Shown here: piece after piece, positions 24,086 to 32,546 of the stretch
Position numbering within the stretch: position 1 is the first letter of the stretch
Layout: each line of letters opens with the position of its first letter
DNA from: Longimicrobiales bacterium
Lineage (GTDB): Bacteria; Gemmatimonadota; Gemmatimonadetes; Longimicrobiales; RSA9
Reading direction: 5' to 3'
NCBI GenBank assembly: GCA_035764935.1
Contig: DASTYK010000148.1
Location: 1 to 35,321, forward strand
Length of the DNA: 35,321 nt
The notes under the pieces: generated by a model
The model's input: the letters and a program-made list of their open reading frames with translations, nothing else
Databases searched by the model: none
Told to the model about the DNA's origin: nothing
Made by a program: the position numbers and the translations under genes

Positions 24086-26785
24086 ATGATCGCCTCCACC
24101 ACCTCCTCCATCCCGTCCGCGGATCCCCACGCCCGCCACGCCGACGAGATCCTCAGCGCTGTCGTGTTCGGTGCGCAGGACTTCCTGAACCACGATGACT
24201 GGGAGCCGGTGCTGGATCCCTGGCTCGAGCGCCTCGGCCGCGCGACCGGGTCGCACCGCGTGCGCGTGTTCCGGAACCTGGAGCCGGAGCCGGACAGTGG
24301 CCTGCGTACCGGCATCCTCGCGGAGTGGCGCGCGCCCGAGGTCGTCGGACTGGTCGATGCGCCGCTCGAAGAGCTGACGTACAGCCAGTGCGGCTGCGAC
24401 CGCTGGCCGGCCGTGCTCGCGGGGGGCGAGCAGATCGTCGGCAGCACGGGTGACTTCGCGGATTGCGAGCGGGCGTTCCTGCGTGCACAGGGGATCGAGT
24501 CGGTCGCGATCGTGCCCGTGTTCGTGCGAGCGGAGTGGTGGGGCTTCATGGCGTTCGGCGACTGCGTCTCGCCACGCGAGTGGAGCGAGCCCGTGCTGCA
24601 GGCGCTGTCCGCGGCCGCCGGCATCCTGGGCGCAACGCTCGCGCGGCGTGACATGGAGCACCGGATCAGCGCGTCACTCGCGCGCGAACAGCTCGCCGCC
24701 GAGATCGGTGCACTGCTGACCGACGAGCCCCGCACGCTCGACGAGAGCCTGCACCGCTGCGCACGCACACTGGTCAAGCATCTCCACGCCGACGCCGTGC
24801 GTATCTGGCACATCGACGATGGCGGCCAGCTGCTGCGCTCGAGTCCCGCCGCGGGCCGGGTGCAGCGCATCCTGCCCGTGCAGGCACTGCAGGTGGGGGA
24901 TTATGCGATCGGCAGGATCGCGGCGACCGCAGAGCCCGAGGTGTGGACCGACGGCATCCCGGAGCTGTGGCCGGGCAGCCTGGCGGCCGCGGAGGAGGAC
25001 GGGCTGCGCGGCGGCGCGGGCCATCCGCTGAAGAAGGACGGCAAGGTCGTCGGCGTCGTGACCATGCTGCTGCGCGAGCCGCCGACGGAAGCACAGCTCG
25101 ACTCGCTCGCCTCGATCACCGACGAGCTGGCGCTCGCGATCGAGCACAGCCGCGCGCAGAGCGCACACCGCCGCAGCGAGGAACGCTACCGCCAGCTGGT
25201 CGAGGCGACGGTCGAGGGCATCGTGATGCACGACAGGTCGGGCATCATCGACGTGAACCCCAGCACCACGACGCTGACCGGCTACACGGCGGAAGAGCTG
25301 ATCGGCACACCGGCGGTCGACTACATCTCGCCCGCGTACCGCGACCTCGTGAGCCACTACGTCGCGACCAACTACCAGGAGCCCTACGAAGCGGAGATCG
25401 TGCACCGCAGCGGCCGCATCTTCCCCGTTGAGATCAAGGGCAGCGAGTTCGTGCGTGACGGTCGCCGCGTGCGCGTCGCTGCGATCCGCGACATCACCGA
25501 GCGCAGAAAGGCGGAGCGGACTGCGGCGCTGCTGCTCGAGGAGCGGACCGCGCGGGAAACGGAGGAGCGCACGCGCCGCCAGGCGGAGTTCCTGCTGGAA
25601 GCGACGCAGATCCTCTCGTCCTCCTTCGACACTTCCACCACGCTGCGCCAGCTCGCGCACCTGGCCGTGCGCTCGCTCGCGGACTTCTGCGTGGTCACAC
25701 TGCGCGACGGCGACGAGTCGGAGCCGGCGGTCGTGGTGCACGGCGATCCGGCGAAGCAGGTGCTGCTCGAGCTGGCCGTGCAGCAGTGGCGCGAGCACTG
25801 GCAGGACCGCCACGCCTTCGAGCGGGTGCAGGCAGCGGGCGAGGCGTTCCTGATGCCGACCATCACGAGCACCGACCTCGACAACATGGCGCGTGATGCA
25901 GAGCACCGGCGCGTGCTCGGTGAGCTGGGCACACGCTCGCTGATGTCCGCGCCCATCAGCATCGGCGGCGAGCTGATCGGATCGATCATGCTCGCATCGA
26001 GCCAGCCCGACCGTGTGTATGCGACGGAAGACCTCGCGCTCGCGCAGGAGCTCAGCCGGCGCGCGGCCCTCGCCATCCAGGCCGCGCGCTCCTACAACCA
26101 GGCACTCGCCGCGACCCGCGCACGCGACGAGCTGCTCGGCATCGTCGCGCACGACCTGCGCAACCCACTGAACACGATCAGCATGGCGGCCAGCTTCGCC
26201 GTCGAGATGATCGAGGGCGAAGACGCGCGGCCGCTGCGACGCCAGCTCGACATCATCGACCGCACCGTCGAGCACATGAACCGACTGATCCAGGACCTGC
26301 TCGATGCGAGCAGGGTGCAGACCGGCCAGCTCGCGCTCGAGCGGATGCCGACCAGGCCGGAGTCGGTGATCCACGAGGCCATGGACATGCTCCAGCCGCT
26401 TGCAACGCACGCGGGTGTGCGCATGGAGGCGGATTGCGGCCCGGAGCTGCCCGCCGTGCTGCTCGACCGGCAGCGCATGGTGCAGGTACTCTCCAACCTG
26501 GTCGGGAACGCGCTGAAGTTCACGCCCGAAGGCGGGCGCATCGGCATCGGTGCGATCGTGCACGAGAGCACCGTGCGCTTCACCGTGAGCGACACCGGCA
26601 ACGGCATCCCCGCCGACCAGCTCCCGCTCATCTTCGGCCGCTTCTACCAGGCGCGCTCCGACAAGCGCGGGCTCGGGCTAGGCCTGTCGATCGCCAAGGG
26701 CATCGTGGAGGCCCATGGCGGCGAGATCTGGGCGGAGTCGGTGGTCGGCCAGGGAAGCACGTTCGGGGTGGATCTGCCGGTCTAG
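24086..26785 (+). CDS. Soluble sensor histidine kinase (GAF-GAF-PAS-GAF-HisKA-HATPase)
   Basis: 899 residues, no membrane segment, so a cytosolic sensor. GAF-type domain ~19-188 with a Cys-x-Cys at 102-104 (QCGCD), second GAF ~200-356, PAS ~364-475 (YRQLVEATVEGIVMHDRSGIIDVNPSTTTLTGY), third GAF ~503-670, HisKA ~680-747 with the phosphoacceptor His689 (LGIVAHDLRNPLNTI), and HATPase_c ~789-898 with N box NLVGNALKFTPEGG, G1 DTGNGIP, F box FGRFYQA and G2 GLGLGLSIAKGIVEAHGG. All kinase boxes are intact. No receiver domain and no response regulator gene is adjacent, so it is an orphan. Start at ATG 24086 (M-I-A-S-T-T) is chosen because everything upstream in frame is repeat or shadow; the ribosome-binding site is weak. 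A long inverted repeat begins right after its stop. Confidence 0.95.
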   Translation: MIASTTSSIPSADPHARHADEILSAVVFGAQDFLNHDDWEPVLDPWLERLGRATGSHRVRVFRNLEPEPDSGLRTGILAEWRAPEVVGLVDAPLEELTYSQCGCDRWPAVLAGGEQIVGSTGDFADCERAFLRAQGIESVAIVPVFVRAEWWGFMAFGDCVSPREWSEPVLQALSAAAGILGATLARRDMEHRISASLAREQLAAEIGALLTDEPRTLDESLHRCARTLVKHLHADAVRIWHIDDGGQLLRSSPAAGRVQRILPVQALQVGDYAIGRIAATAEPEVWTDGIPELWPGSLAAAEEDGLRGGAGHPLKKDGKVVGVVTMLLREPPTEAQLDSLASITDELALAIEHSRAQSAHRRSEERYRQLVEATVEGIVMHDRSGIIDVNPSTTTLTGYTAEELIGTPAVDYISPAYRDLVSHYVATNYQEPYEAEIVHRSGRIFPVEIKGSEFVRDGRRVRVAAIRDITERRKAERTAALLLEERTARETEERTRRQAEFLLEATQILSSSFDTSTTLRQLAHLAVRSLADFCVVTLRDGDESEPAVVVHGDPAKQVLLELAVQQWREHWQDRHAFERVQAAGEAFLMPTITSTDLDNMARDAEHRRVLGELGTRSLMSAPISIGGELIGSIMLASSQPDRVYATEDLALAQELSRRAALAIQAARSYNQALAATRARDELLGIVAHDLRNPLNTISMAASFAVEMIEGEDARPLRRQLDIIDRTVEHMNRLIQDLLDASRVQTGQLALERMPTRPESVIHEAMDMLQPLATHAGVRMEADCGPELPAVLLDRQRMVQVLSNLVGNALKFTPEGGRIGIGAIVHESTVRFTVSDTGNGIPADQLPLIFGRFYQARSDKRGLGLGLSIAKGIVEAHGGEIWAESVVGQGSTFGVDLPV

Positions 26786-26965
26786 GGTGAGGCGGGCCGG
26801 GGCCCGGGGCCCGGGGCCGGGGCCGGGGGCTGCCCGCTGGGAACGCGGCGCGCGGCGGGTTCGTTGCGTGCGCCGGCGTTCGGGACCCGGGAGCGCGGTC
26901 ACCCGTTTCCACCCGCTGCCACCCCGGGCCCAGGCCCAGGGCCCCGGGCCCTGGCCCGCCTCACC
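26786..26965. repeat. 44-bp inverted repeat with G-quadruplex potential
   Basis: Arms at 26786-26829 and 26922-26965 pair at 40 of 44 positions (both arms start with GGTGAGGCGGGCC, on opposite strands) around 92 bases. The left arm begins at the base after the kinase stop codon. Its plus strand has five runs of four or more G at 26799-26829, separated by only 2-3 C, which fits a G-quadruplex; the same arm can also fold on its C runs. No gene lies inside the element. In position it may act as a terminator of the kinase gene. Confidence 0.75.
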
Positions 26966-27029
26966 ATGTGTCGAGTTCCACGCACCTGACTCGTCTCTTC
27001 TCATCGGAAAGCAACGGAGGAGACACGAG

Positions 27030-28406
27030 ATGAGCGACCTGGAAATCGGAGATGCAACGCGCGCGTTGCGCGACAGCGTGCTCGGGCAGGTGATTGCGCC
27101 GGGGGAGGATGGATACGACGTCGCACGTGCGGGCTACTTCGCGTCGATCGACCGGCGACCGGCGGCGATCGTGCGGCCGGCGGATGCGGGGGACGTGGCG
27201 CGCGTGGTGCTGCTCGCGCGCGAGATGGGGCTCGAGCTGGCGGTGCGCAGCGGCGGCCACAGCATGGCGGGGCACAGCAGCACGGGGGGCGGGATCCTGC
27301 TCGACCTGTCGCCACTGAACGCGATCGACATCGATGCGGCCGCGCGTACGGCGTGGGTCGGCGGAGGAGCCACAGCGGGTGCGATCACGACGGCTGCGGG
27401 TGCGCACGGGCTCGCGCTCGGACTCGGCGACACGGGCAGTGTCGGCGTTGGCGGAATCACGCTCGGTGGTGGCGTCGGCTTCCTGCACCGCAAGCTCGGC
27501 CTCACGCTCGACCAGCTCCTGGGCGCGGAGGTCGTGACCGCGGACGGCTCGCGCATCTACACGGACGCGTCCACCAGTCCCGACCTGTTCTGGGCGATCC
27601 GCGGCGGGGGCGGCAACTTCGGCGTCGTGACGCGGTTCCAGTTCCGGCTGGGCGAAGTCAGCGACGCGGTCGGCGGGCCGCTGATCCTGCCGGCGACACC
27701 CGCGACCATTGCCGGCTCGGTCCGCGCGGCGATCGATGCGCCGGAGGAGATGTCCGGCATGATCCTCGTCATGCGGGCACCGCCGATGCCGATGCTGCCC
27801 GCAGAGGTGCACGGCCGGCTCGTCGTGATGCTGATGCTCGTGTACGCCGGGGATGCGGACTCGGGACGTCGCGCATTCGAGCCGTTCCGCGCGCTGGCCA
27901 CACCGCTCGCCGACATGACGCAGCCGATGAAGTACCCTGCGATCTACGAGGGCGGACACGGGCCGCACCCGGTCGCAACCGCGGTGCGCAACTTCTTCAC
28001 CGACGACGTCGACCTGTCGGCCGCGGAGTTCATCCTGGAGCGGCTGCAGCAGTCCACGGCGCCAATGAGCGTCGTGCAGTTCCGCGTGCTGGGCGGCGCC
28101 GTCGCGCGCGTGCCCGCGGACGCGACGGCGTTCGCACACCGGGGACGTCGCATGATGGCCAATGCCGCCGCGGCGTTCGAGCGGCTGGAGGAACGTGCAC
28201 AGCACCAGGCATGGGCGGAGGAGACCGCGGCACGGCTGCGCGGCGATCACCGCGGCGCCTACGTCGGCTTCATGGGTGCGGAGGGCGACGCGCGCGTGCG
28301 TGAGGCGTATCCCGGCGACACGTGGACTCGCCTGTCGCGCATCAAGAAGCGCTACGATCCGGACAACGTGTTCCGGATGAACCAGAACATCACGCCGGCG
28401 CAATGA
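27030..28406 (+). CDS. FAD-dependent oxidase, BBE-like family
   Basis: 458 residues, a PCMH-type FAD protein related to berberine bridge and carbohydrate oxidases. FAD-binding features: RPADAGDVARVVLLAREMGLELAVRSGGHSMAGHSS (His77 is the residue that usually binds FAD covalently), GLGDTGSVGVGGITLGGGVGFLHRKLGLTLDQL, and LFWAIRGGGGNFGVVTRFQF. The C-terminal BBE motif is KKRYDPDNVFRMNQNI. The second covalent site, a Cys in bicovalent members, is Thr135 here, so the cofactor is at most singly linked. No signal peptide; likely cytosolic. ATG at 27030 with GGAGG at 27016-27020. Substrate unknown. It is transcribed alone and ends in a strong terminator. Confidence 0.92.
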   Translation: MSDLEIGDATRALRDSVLGQVIAPGEDGYDVARAGYFASIDRRPAAIVRPADAGDVARVVLLAREMGLELAVRSGGHSMAGHSSTGGGILLDLSPLNAIDIDAAARTAWVGGGATAGAITTAAGAHGLALGLGDTGSVGVGGITLGGGVGFLHRKLGLTLDQLLGAEVVTADGSRIYTDASTSPDLFWAIRGGGGNFGVVTRFQFRLGEVSDAVGGPLILPATPATIAGSVRAAIDAPEEMSGMILVMRAPPMPMLPAEVHGRLVVMLMLVYAGDADSGRRAFEPFRALATPLADMTQPMKYPAIYEGGHGPHPVATAVRNFFTDDVDLSAAEFILERLQQSTAPMSVVQFRVLGGAVARVPADATAFAHRGRRMMANAAAAFERLEERAQHQAWAEETAARLRGDHRGAYVGFMGAEGDARVREAYPGDTWTRLSRIKKRYDPDNVFRMNQNITPAQ

Positions 28407-28481: not shown

Positions 28482-29366
28482 TCACTCGACTGGCGTCCAC
28501 TCGACCGGCTCGAGCGACGTCAGGTATGCCCAGATCGCGCGCATCTCCGTGTCCGTCGCGTGCGAGAACGCGGTCCACGGCATGTACATCGGGTTCAGGT
28601 GCCTGCCCTCCGGTGTGACACCGGTCTTCAGCGTGTGTGCAAACTGCTCGTACGTCCAGTTCTTCAGGTTGCCGGCCGGCGTCAGGTTCGCTCCGGGTGG
28701 CGCACCAGGCGCCTCGGCAGGCGCGCCGGCGAGCTGCGCGCCGTGGCAGCCGATGCAGAGACGCGTCAGGTAATAGCCGTACTCCGCAGTCGGCTCCTTT
28801 GCAGGCGCCTCGAGATGGCGCGCGTCCGGCAGCATGCGATCCCGGGATGGATGGAGCTTGCCGAGTGCCACGAGACCCCGACCGACCGGGCCGAACTCGC
28901 GCTCCGGCAGTGAATCGGGGATCGCCGGCAGCGTCTGCAGGTACGCGACCAGGTCAGCGATCTCCCGGTCACTCAGGTACACGTACTCCTGCGACGGCAT
29001 GATGAACAGCGCGCGGCCGTCCGCACCGATACCGTGCCGGATCGCGCGCTCCCACTGCTCCACTGTCAGTGCACCGCCCTCACGACCCGGCGTCAGGTTG
29101 GGTGCGGGCAGACGCGCCATCGGCATCTCGTCGATCAGCATCACGCCGGCCAGGTTGCCGCCGTGGCAGTCACGGCAGCCGAACGCGCCGGCAAGACGCT
29201 CACCTTCGGCTACGTCCGCCGCGGCAAGATCGAGCGCGTGCGCCTCGACCTCCGGCCGTGCGTTCAGGTGCATGCTGCTGACGGCGTAGCCGGTCCCTGC
29301 TGCCAGTCCGATCAGCAGCACCAGACCGCCGAGGGTAATGCCCGCTCGTCGCTTCCAGGTAGTCAT
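28482..29366 (-). CDS. Membrane-anchored dihaem cytochrome c
   Basis: 294 residues. An N-terminal hydrophobic helix (about 8-30, RRAGITLGGLVLLIGLAAGTGYAV) works as anchor or signal. Two class-I cytochrome c domains follow: haem 1 CRDCH (64-68) with a Met in FIMPSQEY (Met123), and haem 2 CIGCH (204-208) with a Met in MYMPW (Met262). It should be an electron carrier on the periplasmic side, like the cytochrome subunits of dehydrogenases. ATG at 29366 with AGGAGAT upstream. A 5'-leader hairpin lies about 30 bases before the start. It is a paralogue of the gene at 30026-30904, with most of the sequence shared. No dehydrogenase subunit is adjacent. Confidence 0.93.
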   Translation of the reverse strand: MTTWKRRAGITLGGLVLLIGLAAGTGYAVSSMHLNARPEVEAHALDLAAADVAEGERLAGAFGCRDCHGGNLAGVMLIDEMPMARLPAPNLTPGREGGALTVEQWERAIRHGIGADGRALFIMPSQEYVYLSDREIADLVAYLQTLPAIPDSLPEREFGPVGRGLVALGKLHPSRDRMLPDARHLEAPAKEPTAEYGYYLTRLCIGCHGAQLAGAPAEAPGAPPGANLTPAGNLKNWTYEQFAHTLKTGVTPEGRHLNPMYMPWTAFSHATDTEMRAIWAYLTSLEPVEWTPVE

Positions 29367-30025
29367 CGGGGGATCTCCTGAATATCCACGGGAAACGCGC
29401 GGCCTGAACGGCCGCGCATCGGGGTTCACTTGCGATGTTGCATCTGGACGATGCGGACCCCCGGCTGCGTCGACGCGCCGTGGGTGCAATCAGAACGGGA
29501 TTCCGGTGCGGCGGGTTGCACCGGCGGTCGAACGGTACAGGCGGAGGCGGAGGCGGCGGAAGGTTTTTGTGGCGGGGATTCGATTCGGATGGCACCGAAT
29601 TGCGTCAGGGTGCGCGACTGCGTGGCTTCCGGGTTGACTGGCGGCGCGCTCGGGGCGTCGGGCTGGCCACGGCGTTCGGGATCGTACCTGACAGCGGCAC
29701 TGGGGGCGCCCCCTCCCTGTCCGCACGCCCCTGCGCACCCGGCCCCGCGCCGGCCGGAAACGTCACAATTGAGGCGACCGCATCTGGCGCATGTAACGAA
29801 CCCGGCGATATACGCCGGAAACGTCACAGAACGCCTGTCCTGCGACCCCGTTATGAAACGTTTCCGGCCTCAGGCGCCGGAAAGGTTACAGTCGCCTGGA
29901 CGCACGGCAGCAAATGTGACGAAACCGGCGCCCGATGACGCCCTCCCGCCGCGAGTCGCCTCGGCGGCGTGAGTCAACCATCCGCCGGTCGCTCGTGTGC
30001 AGGTGCCCTGCGGGTCTCCCTGCCC
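29367..30025. other. 660-bp non-coding gap between cytochrome genes
   Basis: No convincing gene: the open frames are opposite-strand shadows, Ser/Arg/Pro/Cys-rich with no family match. It contains a perfect 8-bp hairpin GCGCGGCC/GGCCGCGC (29397-29417) in the leader of the downstream cytochrome gene, a stretch of unexplained sequence at 29430-29750, and three palindromic units at 29754-29940 described separately. Confidence 0.6.
29754..29940. repeat. Three ~62-bp palindromic units
   Basis: Six copies of a 13-bp motif alternate in direction. Forward CCGGAAACGTCAC at 29754, the same at 29815, CCGGAAAGGTTAC at 29877; reverse GTAACGAACCCGG at 29793, GAAACGTTTCCGG at 29855, GTGACGAAACCGG at 29916. 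Each forward copy is followed by its reverse partner 39, 40 and 39 bases downstream, so the units start 61-62 bp apart. The regular layout is hard to reach by chance. Function unknown: operator array, RNA hairpins or a dispersed repeat are all possible. Confidence 0.7.
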
Positions 30026-30904
30026 TCACTCCTCCGTCGCCACCGGTTCCAGCGTCTTCAGGTATGCCCACATCGCCCGGAGCGCGGTGTCGTCCGACTG
30101 GCCGATGGATGGCCATGGCATGAACATCGGATCGAGGGACTTCCCCTCCGGCGTCACCCCGGTCCGCAGCGTCCGCTCGAAATCCTCGTACGTCCAGCGC
30201 GCGAGATTCCCGGCCGGGGTCAGGTTCGCGGCGAGCGGTGAGCCGGGCATGGGCATGGGCCCACCGGCGAGGTTGCGGCCGTGGCAGCCCGCGCAGAGGC
30301 GCGTCAGGTAGAAGCCGTACTCGGGTGTTGCCGCCCTGGCCGGTGCATCGAGGTGACGCGCGTCGGGTGGCATGAGGTCCGGTGCGAAGTCGATCATGCC
30401 GAGCCCCACCAGCGTGCGGCCGAGCGGGCCGAACCCGCGTGGCGGCAGTGTGTCGGGTACGGCGGGCACCGTTCGCAGGTAGGCGATCAGGTCAGCGACG
30501 TCGCGGTCGCTGAGCCAGACGTAATCGTTGGAGGGCAGGATGAAGAGCGCGCGCCCGTCCGCTCCGACGCCGTGCCGGATCGCGCGCTCCCACTGCTCGT
30601 CGGTGAGCGGGCCGCCCGCGCGTCCGGGCGTGAGGTTGGGCGCTGCGACGCGGCCCATCGGCGTCGCATCGACGAGCATCCGTCCTTCCAGCTTCCCGCC
30701 ATGGCAGTCGATGCACCCGAACACCCGCACCAGCTCGGCGCCTGACGTTGCATCGCCGGTGGACGCGTCGAATGCGTGGGTGTCGACCTCCGGTACATCA
30801 TCGATGCGTGCGGTCCCGATCGCGAACGCCGCACTGCCGGCGGCGAGGACGAGTGCGAGCAGAACGAGCACGCCAACGCCGATACGGCGCAGCCATTCCC
30901 GCAT
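30026..30904 (-). CDS. Membrane-anchored dihaem cytochrome c, paralogue
   Basis: 292 residues. Hydrophobic anchor/signal ~8-30, then two cytochrome c domains with CIDCH (64-68) and CAGCH near 203-207. Much of the chain matches the 28482-29366 protein (for example NLTPGR.GG.LT.EQWERAIRHG.GADGRALFI and the GNL..WTYE.F..TL.TGVTPEG segment), so a tandem duplication is clear. The haem-2 Met in MFMPW is kept, but at the haem-1 ligand position the paralogue's FIMPS is FILPS here, so Met is replaced by Leu. ATG at 30904 with AGGAGGAAC upstream, a strong ribosome-binding site. It is downstream of the amidase gene on the same strand, with 79 bases between. Confidence 0.93.
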   Translation of the reverse strand: MREWLRRIGVGVLVLLALVLAAGSAAFAIGTARIDDVPEVDTHAFDASTGDATSGAELVRVFGCIDCHGGKLEGRMLVDATPMGRVAAPNLTPGRAGGPLTDEQWERAIRHGVGADGRALFILPSNDYVWLSDRDVADLIAYLRTVPAVPDTLPPRGFGPLGRTLVGLGMIDFAPDLMPPDARHLDAPARAATPEYGFYLTRLCAGCHGRNLAGGPMPMPGSPLAANLTPAGNLARWTYEDFERTLRTGVTPEGKSLDPMFMPWPSIGQSDDTALRAMWAYLKTLEPVATEE

Positions 30905-30983: not shown

Positions 30984-32546
30984 TCAGTCGTGCATCAATG
31001 GCGGTGTTGTGACGGGTGGCCGGCGATGTCGTGTGGCCTGCTCGAATGCGTACGCGAGTGCAATCAGCCGCGGCTCGCTCCACCGGTCGCCCAGGAGCTG
31101 AAGGCCGACGGGCAGCATGCCGTCGCGCACCCATCCCATCGGCACGCTGACGGCCGGCACCCCTGCCGCGGGCACCGGCGTCTGGCTGTTGTCGCCGGCG
31201 GGAGTGGAAAGGTCGCCGACAAGGCGCGGCGGGTTGCTCCACGTCGGGTACGCGATCGCATCGAGCTGGTGCTGCTCGAGCACCTGCTTCAATGCGACGT
31301 ACCACGCCTCGTGCGTCTCGCGTGCCCGCCGGCAGCGCTCCGGGTCGCCTGCAGTCGTGTCGCTCAGCGAATTGCGCATGCGCTGCTCGATCGACGGATG
31401 GTACTTCCCGGACTCGAGGATCTGCTCGAGCGTGCGGTACGGCGCAGCGTCGCCACGCGTGGCGAGGTAGTTCTCGAGGTCGCGCCGAAAGCCGGAGCAG
31501 AGCACCGGTCGGATGGAGTCCATGAAGGCCAGCTCGACGGGATCCACGATCACGGCACCCGCGGCGCGCATGGCGTCCAGTGCCTCGTCGAAGCGCTGCA
31601 GCACTTCCGGATCCGCGCCGCGGCGGTTTGCGATGCGTCGCGCGACGCCGATACGTGCGCCGCGCAGCGCATCCGGATCGAGAAACGAAGTGTAGGTTTC
31701 CGGGATGTGAGCCGCCGCTTCCGCGGTGGCGGGATCGCGCGGTTCGCTGCCGGCGAGCACGTCGAGCAGCAGTGCGGCATCCGCGACGCTGCGCGCCATC
31801 GGTCCGCCGACGTCGCGCTCGAGGAAGAGCGGCACGATGCCGGCGCGGCTCGTCAGCCCGATCGTCGGACGGATCCCGAACAGTGCGGTATGCGACGACG
31901 GCCCGCGGATCGAGTTGCCGGTGTCGGTCCCGAGGCCTGCCGCGCCGAAGCTCGCGGCGACGGCGGCCGCAGTGCCGCCGCTGGAGCCGGCGGGCACGCG
32001 GTTCAGTGCATACGGATTGAACGTGTATCCCGGCAACGCCGAGCCGATCGTCTCCAGCGGACTGAACGCGAACTCCGCCATGTTCGACTTGGCGAGCACG
32101 ATCGCACCGGCAGCGCGCAGTTTCGCGACCATGGTCGCGTCCTGCGGCGGGATCGAATCCGCGAGCGAGGCAGAGCCGGCCGTCGTCGGCAGATCGTACG
32201 TGTCGTAGTTGTCCTTGACGATGATAGGGATGCCGTGCAGCGGCCCGACGAACTCGCCCGTGCGTGCGAAGGTCGCGTCGAGCGAGTCGGCGACCTCGCG
32301 TGCGCGCGGATGGATCACGATGATCGAGTTGAGCGAAGGGCCGCGCTGGTCGTACGCGTCGATCCTGGCCAGGTAGGCATCGACGATCTGGCGCGCGGTG
32401 ACGTCGCCTGCGCGCATGGCGTCATGCAGCTGGGCGATGCTCTTCTCGTGCACCTCGAAATGCTGTGCGTGCACGGCGGCTCCCTGGAACGTGGCGGCAG
32501 TTACTGTGAGTGCGGCGATGATCGCGCGTCGTGGCAGTGTGCGCAT
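30984..32546 (-). CDS. Exported amidase-signature family hydrolase
   Basis: 520 residues. Signal peptide 1-28 (basic MRTLPRR, hydrophobic core, A-V-H-A-Q). Amidase signature triad: Lys111 (GIPIIVKDNYDT), the cis-Ser in PAGSSGGT (Ser188) and the nucleophile in GTDTGNSIRGP (Ser212), 24 residues after it as in characterised members. It hydrolyses an amide or ester bond in the periplasm; substrate unknown. Sequence to the C-terminus (VPMGWVRDGMLPVGLQLLGDRWSEPRLIALAYAFEQAT) is typical and complete. ATG at 32546, only one base after the stop of the zinc-ribbon gene, so the two are probably co-translated. Confidence 0.93.
   Translation of the reverse strand: MRTLPRRAIIAALTVTAATFQGAAVHAQHFEVHEKSIAQLHDAMRAGDVTARQIVDAYLARIDAYDQRGPSLNSIIVIHPRAREVADSLDATFARTGEFVGPLHGIPIIVKDNYDTYDLPTTAGSASLADSIPPQDATMVAKLRAAGAIVLAKSNMAEFAFSPLETIGSALPGYTFNPYALNRVPAGSSGGTAAAVAASFGAAGLGTDTGNSIRGPSSHTALFGIRPTIGLTSRAGIVPLFLERDVGGPMARSVADAALLLDVLAGSEPRDPATAEAAAHIPETYTSFLDPDALRGARIGVARRIANRRGADPEVLQRFDEALDAMRAAGAVIVDPVELAFMDSIRPVLCSGFRRDLENYLATRGDAAPYRTLEQILESGKYHPSIEQRMRNSLSDTTAGDPERCRRARETHEAWYVALKQVLEQHQLDAIAYPTWSNPPRLVGDLSTPAGDNSQTPVPAAGVPAVSVPMGWVRDGMLPVGLQLLGDRWSEPRLIALAYAFEQATRHRRPPVTTPPLMHD

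Follow-up and report, generated by a model that had tools for sequence, protein, structure and literature searches.

The palindromic array between two cytochrome c-like genes of a Longimicrobiales bacterium is best explained, with a probability of roughly 60%, as one of nine dispersed, lineage-specific and usually three-unit binding arrays of a protein in which an AbiEi part is fused to a nuclease. This protein is proposed to bind the arrays, and might also autoregulate its own gene, cut array DNA and help the arrays to spread. The evidence comes from the geometry of the array, its counterparts in related genera, and the position and predicted fold of the partner gene.

A regular array and its dispersed copies

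The window, i.e., the whole stretch of DNA analysed, comprises 35,321 nucleotides of contig C148. Its array consists of three units, each with a 15-bp arm, a loop of 24–25 bp and an inverted 15-bp arm (Table 1), giving partner offsets of 39, 40 and 39 bp and unit spacings of 61 and 62 bp. The sequence-only reading had already described six motif copies between cytochrome genes at these offsets, repeating every 61–62 bp, and all of them were found. Its span (29754–29940) needed adjustment, and the repeating unit is more exactly one of 54–55 bp plus a linker of exactly 7 bp; likewise, its pairing of a motif "and its reverse" holds for the orientation, with the partner being the reverse complement. 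Against GCCGGAAACGTNACA, two of the six arms are exact, two have one mismatch and two have three. At up to three mismatches, GCCGGAAACGTNACA matches the window 10 times (3.2 expected), a count that none of 100 shuffles reached. In a scan for three-unit arrays that was blind to sequence, the array scored 181, the runner-up site in the window 120, and the maximum over 1.29 Mb sampled from relatives without any array seen was 131. Clearly, the window array is real and non-random.

Table 1. Positions of the array, its parts and the adjoining genes in the window.
Feature	Positions	Strand	Basis or remark
Complete three-unit array, 177 bp, 54-7-55-7-54	29753–29929	.	De novo score 181
Unit 1, loop 24; arms 29753–29767 (GCCGGAAACGTCACA, + strand) and 29792–29806 (inverted, reverse complement)	29753–29806	.	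Match to model R1
Linker 1, 7 bp	29807–29813	.	7 bp in 25/25 junctions of own genome
Unit 2, loop 25; arms 29814–29828 (+ strand) and 29854–29868 (inverted, reverse complement)	29814–29868	.	Match to model R1
Linker 2, 7 bp	29869–29875	.	7 bp in 25/25 junctions of own genome
Unit 3, loop 24; arms 29876–29890 (GCCGGAAAGGTTACA, + strand) and 29915–29929 (inverted, reverse complement)	29876–29929	.	Match to model R1
Dihaem cytochrome c-like gene (context only); start 387 bp from array	28482–29366	-	Pfam PF00034, PF13442
Cytochrome c-like paralogue gene (context only); stop 97 bp from array	30026–30904	-	Pfam PF00034, PF13442

The two cytochrome c genes are tandem paralogues, with an amidase gene upstream at 30984–32546 and a gene for a berberine-bridge-type FAD oxidase (26715–28406) on the other side of the pair. 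When the entire genome (3.83 Mb in 195 contigs) was searched by pattern, clustered arm copies turned up on nine contigs, and a covariance model search returned exactly those nine arrays, with 34 good units and no solo units of this first arm family. The suggestion of a small dispersed element was thus well founded. Three units each occur on C148, C172, C184 and C21, two on C72, four on C76 and six on C87; C122 carries five plus one degenerate unit and C13 five good plus three degenerate units, the degenerate ones being excluded from the total of 34. Arms are kept across these arrays and loops mostly are not, the exception being a short ATTG-like extension on the inner side. A second arm family, ACCGNTNNGCCGCCA, is also dispersed in this genome, with nine pattern matches on C99, C73, C142 and C184 and zero in the control. 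Solo sites of this family lie at G000 C142:18283 and 20778, C184:24382, C73:24909 and C99:53660, and C184 bears both families.

The genes beside the nine arrays encode cytochrome c, multicopper oxidase and cox1, FMN reductase and FtsH, ArsR and HlyD, SDR, glutamate dehydrogenase, M14 peptidase, an IS481-type transposase and a SusD-like protein. These neighbours are unrelated, and therefore no shared regulon is evident. The transposase gene (L046:3223-4425, on C184) ends 59 bp from the C184 array. An operator serving the flanking cytochrome genes would suit the short distances given in Table 1, and cytochrome or oxidase genes are close to the arrays on C172 and C76 as well; however, the remaining arrays occupy unrelated intergenic sites, and the many arrays of a related genus (see below) have no shared function or orientation, making a cytochrome operator extremely improbable. 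The earlier idea of an operator array survives only as a likely binding array of an AbiEi-nuclease encoded elsewhere. Known repeat classes were considered as well. A CRISPR array is out, as was said from the start on the grounds of repeat divergence, since the arms of one array differ from each other and, in some arrays, the loops are nearly identical. The attC sites of integrons carry a consensus GTTRRRY box; by eye, no such box is present, and the spacing is far too short.

Conserved geometry and changing arms in related genera

The first-family arm sequence was confined to this genome among 12 genomes of the family and 146 of the order. A DNA search of 40 relatives produced no convincing match, and viral contigs gave none; a single isolated unit in Litoribacter (genome_contigs search) was taken as chance. 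When only geometry was scanned for, arrays appeared in G010, which belongs to another genus of the family, with the arm GCGGCAAACTTCCA and a period of 61–62 bp. Here, 21 loci were parsed into 26 chains, 21 of exactly three units and five with odd end arms. One five-arm chain was dropped and longer chains were trimmed to six arms, giving a set of 25 arrays, the trimming having cut off a fourth unit in L162. The linker measures 7 bp in all 50 junctions of the trimmed arrays and in 53 of 57 in the untrimmed chains. This length was imposed in a later fixed-geometry scan and not in the first scan or the chain parser, where 2 to 12 bp were allowed. Across both genomes, loops range from 23 to 27 bp in length, and there is almost no conservation of their sequence.

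Further arrays, in G011 (two in 352 kb) and G004, came from the fixed-geometry scan. A model built from the units of these two genomes then gave 103 rows in G011 (both strands), 36 in G004, 22 in G003, 17 in G002 and six in G005, with three-unit spacing visible among the matches in G011 and G002; clusters in G011 were counted among the matches listed for this model. Five genera clearly carry arrays (the genus of the window, G010, G011/G003, G004 and G002), and a sixth, G005, probably does. Sampled DNA of G007 (400 kb), G006 (93 kb), G012 (400 kb), G013 (200 kb) and G032 (200 kb) showed no arrays. At L120:17709 of G012, from another family of the order, a different inverted motif (GACAGATTC...GAATCTGTC, 84-bp spacing) may represent a further family of palindromic repeats. 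Positions 7–8 of the arm consensus read AA in the genome of the window, G010, G011 and G004, and the second family of the window's genome lacks AA there.

The search of related genomes that was originally proposed therefore had a divided outcome: the letters of the arm are absent from the relatives searched, and the geometry is present there with other arms. A motif of random frequency, absent from relatives, had been said to indicate chance or neutral expansion; this is half true of the letters and fails in substance because the geometry recurs with other arms. Neutral tandem duplication would explain the near-identical adjacent units within the arrays on C87, C122 and C13, where local duplication is evident. 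Nevertheless, the loops have diverged but the arms and the 7-bp linker have not, the same geometry returns with new arms in other genera, and scans with other linker or loop sizes yielded mainly shifted frames of known arrays and low-complexity matches. As an account of the array as a whole, chance or neutral duplication is thus most improbable.

The 25 arrays of G010 are intergenic and lie between tandem genes in nine cases, divergent genes in eight and convergent genes in seven, with one undetermined. Position 9 holds one base on one strand through these arrays (115 versus 94.3, sd 3.5; 0/2000), and a strand composition bias was not supported as the source of the signal, there being no matching skew in loops or linkers (mean -0.04). 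The arrays are, in other words, oriented, which would be explicable by common descent of tandem units or by a strand-specific function. At L076:2465-2590 of G010, direct tandem repeats of 43 bp, which contain an arm-like half-site, continue into an array at its first arm. A check for target-site duplication at the borders of 32 arrays (the 25 of G010 and seven of the nine from the window's genome, with C13 and C122 omitted) showed no clear duplications, the longest flank match averaging 3.75 versus 3.19 (sd 0.25).

Structured RNA, in the form of regulatory or terminator hairpins in transcripts, had been among the first suggestions, and the window array does fold well (z -6.9 on each strand). 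Of course, folding on both strands is expected of any inverted repeat. Arms within a unit match each other below the level of shuffled arms in the window's genome (418/510 versus 427.8, sd 3.6) and not significantly better than shuffled arms in the 25 G010 arrays, and this lack of covariation tells against the suggestion. Array orientation is, moreover, unlinked to gene strand, and the window holds no Rfam match at the gathering score and no terminator-like site. An RNA role is accordingly judged very unlikely. Hairpins formed across the 7-bp linker or by the whole array were also tried and rejected, the matching being no better than for other arm combinations.

An AbiEi-nuclease gene beside the arrays

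In G010, two arrays on C7 flank a gene (L080:640-1578) whose product has AbiEi and DUF559/MTES_1575 domains, and in the window's genome the C172 array lies 353 bp from a homologue, on one side only. These two loci prompted the idea of a partner gene; four others tested it, two of them with a positive result. On C72 of G011, two three-unit arrays lie upstream of the AbiEi-nuclease gene (the nearer at ~200 bp) and one lies 43 bp downstream. On C99 of the window's genome, a second copy of the gene sits between two three-unit arrays (904 and 2505 in L178) in inverted orientation, which are built of the second arm family. No arrays were present by the gene copies on G010 C5 and G011 C56. In all, arrays occur within 0.4 kb of the gene in four of the six readable loci (among 21 family copies), and on both sides in three. 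By coordinates, a unit in G003 (C40) also lies 206 bp from a copy.

Under random placement, the chance of flanking on both sides is 1e-5 or less per gene, a figure that is only a guide because arrays cluster and because PALP and PagL-like genes are also flanked in G010. The PALP gene (threonine-dehydratase-like, L162:4621-5574) and the PagL-like gene (L172:13943-14572) each have an array on each side, and paired arrays ~1.7 kb apart may carry cargo. Within a comparison spanning two gene places, the AbiEi-nuclease gene is the only immediate neighbour common to the nine arrays of the window's genome and those of G010, the matches for FtsH, amidase and the lipoyl-synthase region involving second neighbours. 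Most arrays, including that of the window, are far from any copy. Contig C148 has no PF18741 match, and in the best explanation the window array would be a solo site far from the gene. In a tree of six AbiEi-nuclease proteins, the array-linked copies did not form a well supported clade. Relatives of the G011 nuclease were found in neither plasmids nor viral contigs, and a search for the gene over 2.4 Mb of DNA recovered only two, both already known.

All four array-linked proteins match PADLOC AbiEi models (E 1e-25 to 1e-32) and Pfam DUF559/MTES_1575. The structure of the G011 protein, predicted from six sequences with a mean pLDDT of 82, resembles AbiEi 6y8q over residues 3–195 (Foldseek E 2e-5, Z 11.8) and Rv2827c 1zel over residues 1–195 (Z 8.4). 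Its remaining part resembles the homing endonuclease I-Bth0305I (3r3p; residues 204–302, E 1e-4, Z 13.5) and Vsr (1cw0; residues 202–302, Z 11.4). Winged-helix chains from VIA-align, which were many and of middling Z over residues 1–60, were not used, and a sequence-only profile matched AbiEi chains in the PDB weakly (E 0.6). Residues E207, D247, H252, D261 and D265 are invariant in all six sequences and presumably include the catalytic ones. Judged from the predicted fold, the gene encodes an AbiEi-type winged-helix DNA-binding region fused to a Vsr/EDxHD nuclease, and the array likely has a cognate nuclease.

Comparison with known systems and possible mechanisms

One of the closest parallels is provided by published operators of the AbiEi family, in which 23-bp inverted repeats come in pairs; that of Rv2827c in M. 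tuberculosis has four such repeats in tandem, with gaps of 13 bp inside a pair and 4 bp from one pair to the next (PMC7319586); by arithmetic, these published gaps give a period of 63 bp. An AbiEi-fold protein and tandem inverted-repeat pairs are shared with the present system, in which the period is 61–62 bp. Unlike that operator, there are here three pairs and not one or two, arrays also far from the gene, and a nuclease fusion; unlike AbiE, no AbiEii (DUF1814) domain was detected in the subset of array neighbours run through Pfam. The gene-linked arrays correspond to AbiEi-type operators in predicted protein fold and in geometry, as putative binding sites, and adjacency to the AbiEi gene distinguishes the four gene-linked loci from the window array.

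A second comparison is with the REP/RAYT systems (REPtron; GTAG and CGTC families), and the arrays might conceivably be mobile REP- or REPIN-like palindromes, with single-stranded hairpins serving as substrate for an HUH (Y1/RAYT) transposase. They are likewise intergenic, dispersed and oriented, with inverted arms and lineage-specific sequence, and some flank a cognate-looking gene; Y1 matches (PF01797, in 3/12 family genomes) were strong in G008 and weak in G011 and G003. On the other hand, there are no PF01797 (Y1_Tnp) matches in the window's genome or in G010, though G010 has ~26 arrays, and the arms do not co-vary. REP stems of 5–13 bp with loops of 2–20 bp and variable grouping are described in the available text of PMC3733652, whereas the arrays here have loops of 24–25 bp and a strict three-unit form, with no solo units of the first arm family in the window's genome. 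Units of 54–55 bp also exceed the 20–40 bp hairpins with terminal GTAG or CGTC given there (PMC3733652); CGTC is internal in the arms of the window's genome, and the arms of other genera lack it. Mobilization of this kind is accordingly quite unlikely.

A third comparison concerns the nuclease. According to PMC3943268, I-Bth0305I binds as a dimer to a target almost 60 bp long, close to the length of one unit, and in the predicted structure the catalytic fold is shared with both I-Bth0305I and Vsr. Unlike EDxHD homing endonucleases and Vsr, the protein has an AbiEi-type DNA-binding part, with no intron or intein seen, and its putative target arrays are found at many sites besides those adjoining the gene.

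In the preferred explanation, the 15-bp arm would be a half-site, two inverted half-sites ~39 bp apart would form a unit, and units would follow one another at 7 bp. The AbiEi part would bind the arms, allowing the fusion protein to autoregulate its own gene via the flanking arrays. With a dimer on each unit, two nuclease domains could meet over the loop, which is free in sequence and almost constant in length, and nicking or cutting followed by repair may have helped the arrays to spread. A bolder version, tentative and at less than even odds, is a selfish repeat system assembled from toxin–antitoxin and homing parts. Here, the fusion nuclease would recognise three-unit arrays and cut or nick their loops, and repair would copy arrays, sometimes with the gene, to new intergenic sites. 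Nuclease and arm sequence would co-evolve in each lineage, and therefore arms would turn over with the geometry fixed.

It is also conceivable that the arrays are operators for a nucleoid protein or a common global regulator, and not for the AbiEi-nuclease, with the linkage to the gene reflecting sites that tolerate insertion. Arms conserved singly with unconserved loops, and intergenic arrays showing no preference for gene orientation (25 G010 arrays), would agree with such a regulator. However, the AbiEi-nuclease gene is flanked on both sides by arrays at three loci from three genera, in one case with an arm family of its own; turnover of arms across dispersed sites would be hard for a regulon, and the arrays of the window's genome reveal no shared one. 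An unrelated regulator is thus unlikely.

Literature searched for DUF559 together with AbiEi, as judged by titles and the starts of abstracts, held nothing on such a system, and the dispersed element is apparently undescribed there. What began as an odd repeat becomes a testable system, in which spacing is kept to the base pair, letters vary between genera, and the arrays are associated with an AbiEi-DUF559 nuclease that is as yet uncharacterised. Should this protein prove to bind and cut them, the arrays would be a substrate for AbiEi-DUF559 fusions. The system would then also represent a non-HUH route to dispersed palindromic repeats in bacteria, and would offer natural pairs of a DNA-binding domain and a 15-bp site in which the evolution of specificity could be studied.
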